Source: an uncultured SAR86 cluster bacterium (GTDB lineage Bacteria > Pseudomonadota > Gammaproteobacteria > Magnimaribacterales > Magnimaribacteraceae). Taken from it: a stretch of DNA of 64,000 nt. Each line of letters begins with the position of its first letter. Position 1 is the first letter of the stretch. Shown here in pieces: positions 234 through 612 of this stretch. The translations under genes and the position numbers were made by a program. Under the pieces are notes generated by a model. The model had not been told where the DNA came from. It saw only the letters and a program-made list of their open reading frames with translations, and did not search any database. The stretch lies in contig CABXQE010000001.1 of the NCBI GenBank assembly GCA_902514295.1, forward strand, positions 1 through 64,000, written 5' to 3'.

Positions 234-553
234 AAATTGTTTATGTGTTCCATTTCTTTTTTAAGTTTATCAAATTCTTCGGATTTTCTTTTAAGAAATT
301 GTATTGTCAACTTTTTTTTTGTTTCTACACCTTCTGGGGTTAGTAAGTATAAATATCCGAGCTTACTATCTGATCTTTTAAAATTACCAATCATCAGAAA
401 ACCTTTATTTATAAGGGCTTGAATTAAGTAATTAATTTTACCTAAACTTAAGCCCAGATGTTCTGCTATCTGACGTTGAGTAAGATTAGGATTTTCTTCT
501 ATTTTCCTAAGAATTTCTAATTCTTCTTCGGAGTAATTTTTTCTTTTTTTCAA
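230..553 (-). CDS. MarR-type winged-helix, EPS-associated transcriptional regulator
   Basis: Winged helix (LTQRQIAEHLGLSLGKINYLIQALINKGFL) plus C-terminal coiled coil, directly upstream of a Wzz-like gene. Start codon is TTG. Confidence 0.8.
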   Translation of the reverse strand: MKKRKNYSEEELEILRKIEENPNLTQRQIAEHLGLSLGKINYLIQALINKGFLMIGNFKRSDSKLGYLYLLTPEGVETKKKLTIQFLKRKSEEFDKLKKEMEHINNL

Positions 554-564
554 TAGCTACCGCA
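554..564 (-). promoter_or_regulatory. ops-like (JUMPstart core) RfaH recruitment element
   Basis: Minus strand reads TGCGGTAGCTA, matching the ops core GGCGGTAGCNT at 9 of 11 positions with GCGGTAGC exact. Lies downstream of an rfaH-like gene and upstream of polysaccharide genes. Confidence 0.7.
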
Positions 565-612
565 ATGAATTTTTGTTTAATAATTCATTTATTCTTATTT
601 TGTTTCTTTCGT

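Follow-up and report, generated by a model that had tools for sequence, protein, structure and literature searches.

Background

RfaH and its ops site form a classic system, and class I pause hairpins act about 10–12 nt from the RNA 3′ end. In the published view, ops lets a distantly encoded RfaH find several targets in trans, and its cis-encoded relatives are either ancestral or ops-independent. The core of ops has been defined as a DNA hairpin, and the pause of Escherichia coli RNA polymerase at ops has been set apart from pauses that a hairpin stabilises (PMC11001881); possible folding of JUMPstart into stem-loops has also been proposed (PMC3673904). The genes of the cis-encoded NusG paralogues UpxY, TaA and LoaP lie beside or inside polysaccharide loci, and the recruitment modes of such factors have been called unknown (PMC7593976). 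A 2026 preprint associates RfaH genes that adjoin their target operon with monomorphic proteins acting independently of ops (PMC13015549).

The locus described here lies at the start of a 64,000-nucleotide stretch of an uncultured SAR86 cluster genome (the window), which comes from a small, AT-rich assembly of 1.23 Mb in 58 contigs, 79% complete. A sequence-only reading had proposed that an ops-like element for RfaH recruitment lies beside rfaH, where a polysaccharide locus begins, with an inverted repeat ahead of it that would form an RNA hairpin at the predicted pause site. The motif, the inverted repeat and the genes were recovered on the minus strand exactly where they had been placed, and the follow-up added a candidate promoter and two palindromic putative operators that had been missed.

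Layout of the locus

Read along the minus strand, the features are as follows.

686–1234, minus: RfaH-like NusG paralogue, 182 aa (TIGR01955 and Pfam NusG domain)
646–660, minus: putative operator palindrome 1, GTTCAAATATTGAAC (GTTCA-N5-TGAAC match)
639–644, minus: -10-like hexamer TATAGT between both palindromes, the best promoter-like match in the spacer
613–627, minus: putative operator palindrome 2, GTTCATTAAATGAAC, 33 bp from palindrome 1
564–589, minus: predicted RNA hairpin, AATGAATT (582–589)-N10-AATTCATT (564–571), 3′ arm ending at ops position 1
553–564, minus: ops-like element TGCGGTAGCTAT, with the core GCGGTAGC at 556–563 equal to ops hairpin G2–C9
230–553, minus: MarR_EPS regulator, 107 aa, TTG start at 551–553 (TIGR04176)
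1–233, minus: Wzz-like chain-length determinant, first 77 codons, running off the contig end

The minus strand at 554–564 reads TGCGGTAGCTA, and its core is identical to the 8-nt ops hairpin of the E. coli structures, including G5 and T6 in the loop. Unlike E. coli ops, the element has T1, A11 and T12 in place of G1, U11 and G12; since G1 and the pause end U11–G12 are not kept, we call it ops-like, with the RfaH-reading core intact. As in E. coli, an RNA hairpin (7 bp in JUMPstart) directly precedes ops and the element occupies a leader position ahead of polysaccharide genes. The 39-bp JUMPstart consensus itself is not matched in the window, the ops core being the only common part, and the window differs further in that its hairpin is AT-rich, its candidate promoter is flanked by MarR_EPS-type palindromes, and its factor is encoded next door, whereas RfaH of E. 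coli is encoded elsewhere. The locus resembles those of UpxY, TaA and LoaP in having the factor gene beside a polysaccharide locus, and RfaH cluster CL4 in having an HTH regulator as neighbour (PMC7593976), but unlike the cis-encoded paralogues it shows a candidate recruitment signal, the ops-like element adjoining the factor gene.

No terminator was found between rfaH and marR, and the wzz-like gene overlaps marR as ATGA. Position 1 of the window is the contig end, so the polysaccharide operon cannot be read leftward in this assembly, where no second Wzz fragment that would locate the missing operon end was found. The placement at the head of a polysaccharide locus is nevertheless borne out by five relatives, in which 15–18 kb of almost entirely same-strand genes follow ops. 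In one of these (L058) the domains comprise Wzz, an ABC transporter, GDP-mannose dehydratase/epimerase-type enzymes, a nucleotidyltransferase, NeuB, a cytidylyltransferase and a DegT aminotransferase, and the counterpart of the window's wzz-like gene has a Pfam Wzz match; the window fragment is 45% identical to a relative's Wzz-like protein. In relatives the element heads a long polysaccharide operon; the window's own operon is cut off.

On the other side, tRNA-Leu and tRNA-Cys (1260–1346 and 1395–1468) lie upstream of rfaH, between it and a gene which we take from its translation to be pgsA; a presumed uvrC, identified in the same way, also lies upstream. Sequence derived from tRNA also stands immediately 5′ of rfaH in L013, L019 and L020, and in L017 a tRNA-Leu stands 5′ of the palindrome and marR, which suggests a tRNA-flanked site for the exchange of polysaccharide islands.

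Conservation of ops beside rfaH

Among 204 genomes of the order, 21 carry a MarR_EPS gene above the family cut-off, and their loci were chosen by protein family, not by motif. Wherever rfaH lies directly upstream of the MarR_EPS gene (18 loci, from three families within which genomes are not independent), TGCGGTAGC[T/C] separates rfaH from marR, with T1 in every case, and TGCGGTAGC is absent from all three MarR_EPS loci that lack an adjacent rfaH (one of them a truncated contig). The flanking DNA has widely diverged, and the core is therefore under selection. An RfaH-like gene occurs in 9 of 61 relatives, all 9 among the 10 genomes with MarR_EPS.

Two genomes separate the parts. Locus L017 has MarR_EPS and one palindrome but neither rfaH nor ops, and the sole NusG-type match of its genome scores at NusG level. 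In a genome of the window's own genus (G004), rfaH is joined straight to wzz with AAGGAG before wzz and no ops at the junction, and a palindrome, a hairpin and TGCGGTAGCC appear behind wzz, ahead of the next sugar gene. These dissociations indicate that the palindrome tracks MarR_EPS control and that ops tracks rfaH. The rfaH–wzz junction of G004, joined through this Shine-Dalgarno-like site, lies in locus L026 (contig C4, 1468–3305), and its MarR_EPS gene is at a separate site (L011), behind hisF/hisH-like genes.

Outside the order, further MarR_EPS loci came from a search across the class, in which 30 loci were read, and from 79 loci of a GTDB contig scan. They belong to Marinobacter, Marinomonas, Methylophaga, Alcanivorax, many betaproteobacteria and a few Leptospiraceae, and their gene orders include rfaH-ops-marR and marR-rfaH-ops. 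Sense GCGGTAGC lies within 250 nt past the rfaH stop codon in 40 of 50 rfaH loci, and antisense copies in none. It is the commonest 8-mer downstream of rfaH, where permutations of the same composition average 0.16, and outside the order most of these sites read GGGCGGTAGCGTG or close to it, as in E. coli. A factor gene closely followed by ops is thus the usual arrangement at such loci, and the earlier description of the window's module as unusually compact does not hold.

A palindrome and ops at tight spacing were found outside the order in 4 of 369 genomes against 2 for a reversed control pattern, and this composite was rejected as a class-wide marker, being rare and near its control. A second leader type, with GCGCTTGCTGAnCGnnnnACAG right before GCGGTAGC, occurs in distant proteobacteria (L143, L164, L167, L138 and L180) and resembles a JUMPstart variant as judged by sequence. 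In contigs of Leptospiraceae/Spirochaetota, MarR_EPS and palindromes are present in L154, L165 and L178, and the RfaH-like genes of L134, L165 and L178 lack key RfaH residues, with no ops just after rfaH; these loci are a possible ops-less comparison group.

The MarR_EPS regulator and its candidate operator

The regulator scores 130.5 bits against TIGR04176, well above the cut-off of 88, and belongs to MarR_EPS. GTTCA-N5-TGAAC has two copies in the whole genome, both at this locus, and an exact copy lies at most 400 nt upstream of 60 of the 79 MarR_EPS genes in the GTDB contig scan, against an expectation of about 4 in 10,000 for each locus at equal base frequencies. Because the palindromes are exclusive to the locus and recur upstream of these genes, they are likely the MarR_EPS operator. 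Relatives carry better promoter-like matches, such as TTGACT-17-TACAAT right before the putative operator; the window promoter is weak by consensus, and TATAGT (639–644) was not listed by a standard promoter scan of the window.

The RfaH-like protein

The window protein scores 130.1 bits against TIGR01955, under the cut-off of 144.5, and has a Pfam NusG domain; given this score it is named RfaH-like. Its best PDB sequence matches are E. coli RfaH structures (E 2e-16), and the separate NusG homologues of relatives score lower. In E. coli numbering (after PMC2871177 and PMC7593976), K10 is kept among the ops-contact residues, R16→K and T72→S are conservative changes, and H20→N and R73→Y are also found; E48 is replaced by V and R138 is kept.

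These changes bear on the strongest rival explanation, that the protein is always in the open state and works in cis without recognising any sequence, with GCGGTAGC retained chiefly for pausing or as a leader signal. The loss of R73, H20 and E48 in the window's lineage (E48 is kept in most other loci) fits such a protein, as does the AF2 model, in which the C-terminal domain is predicted as a beta-barrel whose best fold match is fully recruited RfaH (8phk). RfaHs beside long operons are moreover reported to be mostly monomorphic and to lack some ops-binding residues (PMC13015549), and the window protein resembles these homologues in adjoining its target operon, in having lost some ops-contact residues and in its predicted barrel. 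However, an E48-bearing relative, modelled from the same alignment with no alpha-state control possible, also gives a beta-barrel, and AF2 was rejected as a test of autoinhibition since it does not discriminate between the two. K10 is kept, here and in nearly all RfaH-like proteins examined, and G5 and T6, which RfaH reads and which pausing alone should not need (PMC11001881), are present in 18 of 18 rfaH-adjacent loci. Unlike the reported monomorphic, ops-independent proteins, the window-type loci have a strictly conserved ops, and loci without an adjacent rfaH have no ops. We regard recognition-free action as a doubtful alternative, though the one that survives best.

The hairpin and the leader

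The hairpin at the predicted pause site, which the sequence-only reading had proposed, is conserved as a structure. Hairpins ending 1–4 nt before GCGGTAGC have z-scores of -9.0, -6.0 and -7.3 in three locus sets, and the mean folding energy with the base before ops forced to pair peaks sharply, at offset -1 for the family of the window and at -3/-4 for the other loci. With the best offset between -1 and -4 taken at each site, the three sets average -6.3, -4.2 and -8.7 kcal/mol, against -0.7, -0.9 and -3.4 kcal/mol for their shuffled counterparts; outside the order the sites were picked by the presence of GCGGTAGC, and the statistics there describe ops sites, not random leaders. The position is kept with altered sequence (AATGAATT/AATTCATT in the window, AATGGATT/AATCCATT in L013, ACTAC/GTAGT in L012, AGGAAT/ATTCCT in G004). 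At seven alignable sites from other proteobacteria, compensatory two-sided changes affect 4 of the 10 pairs, and pairing holds in 93% of cells, compared with 33–60% when the alignment is slid. In the JUMPstart 39-mer of E. coli, which 600 records of the species match at 99% or more, a hairpin of 7 bp likewise ends at ops position 1; if the polymerase pauses at U11, as in E. coli, the hairpin would lie about 10–12 nt from the RNA 3′ end. Joint action of hairpin and ops at the pause is our hypothesis.

The conserved hairpin could also be read as part of an RNA leader or attenuator, formed with GCGGTAGC, on which another factor acts, for instance to control translation of marR, and not as part of an RfaH loading site. 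Four genomes of the family to which the window belongs have the start codon 1–2 nt past the core (2 nt in the window, with an ATG at the position of its TTG in relative L013). Elsewhere, however, the start is 23–58 nt away or marR and rfaH both precede ops, the presence of the element tracks rfaH, not marR, and its core equals the solved ops hairpin, all of which make this explanation improbable. The related suggestion that the element doubles as a leader/RBS element was not upheld, as no Shine-Dalgarno-like sequence is present, the distance from ops to start ranges over 1–58 nt among relatives, and such motifs are rare in the genome. Since just 8 of the window's 42 long ORFs have the motif, its absence was likewise rejected as a sign of RfaH-driven translation.

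Motif counts as a sole criterion are too weak to decide: exact GCGGTAGC occurs once in 64 kb, and sites with at most 2 mismatches to GGCGGTAGCNT number 25 against 16 expected. The genome-wide scan that the sequence-only reading had called for was more informative, with 9 of 10 copies inside ORFs and the window copy the sole intergenic one. Because of this, and of the position kept in 18 of 18 loci, the match is more than chance and the motif is very probably a functional ops element. That it is a chance octamer beside rfaH can be set aside, for although 0.24 copies are expected in the window, 23 of 100 shuffled windows contain one and nine genomic copies are plain coding sequence, recurrence in 18/18 loci of the order and 40/50 overall amid diverged flanks already refutes it.

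Discussion

Taken with their order, conservation and co-occurrence, these elements very likely form a two-gate switch, acting at initiation and at elongation, for a long LPS/EPS gene cluster. At the first gate MarR_EPS, the product of the cluster's first gene, would bind the palindromes overlapping its own promoter and repress it, as the position and exclusivity of the palindromes suggest. At the second gate, modelled on E. coli biology, polymerase would transcribe a short leader, about 70 nt in the window, whose RNA would fold so that the 3′ base of the hairpin abuts the ops core, and would pause at ops, a pause that the RNA hairpin may reinforce. The non-template GCGGTAGC would then form the ops hairpin and recruit the RfaH-like protein encoded immediately upstream, which would displace NusG, shield the complex from Rho and keep it coupled to the ribosome across the polysaccharide genes.

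A more speculative extension of the two-gate switch, to which we give little more than tentative credence, is that the ops DNA hairpin combines with an RNA hairpin of the his type into a composite pause that loads a neighbour-made, already open (monomorphic) RfaH-like factor under a MarR_EPS-controlled promoter. Such a locus might represent an evolutionary intermediate with ops recognition before or without autoinhibition.

For the MarR_EPS family, the palindrome provides a predicted operator; no experimental study of the family was found in the literature searched, and that search, incomplete and hence weak evidence, returned nothing relevant on MarR_EPS with RfaH or on TIGR04176. As the conservation of the hairpin suggests, E. 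coli assays built on the 12-mer alone may leave out part of the signal that operates in nature. The loci described here combine adjacency with a strictly conserved ops, and the proposed course of RfaH evolution, in which action in cis came first and ops and autoinhibition later, becomes directly testable.
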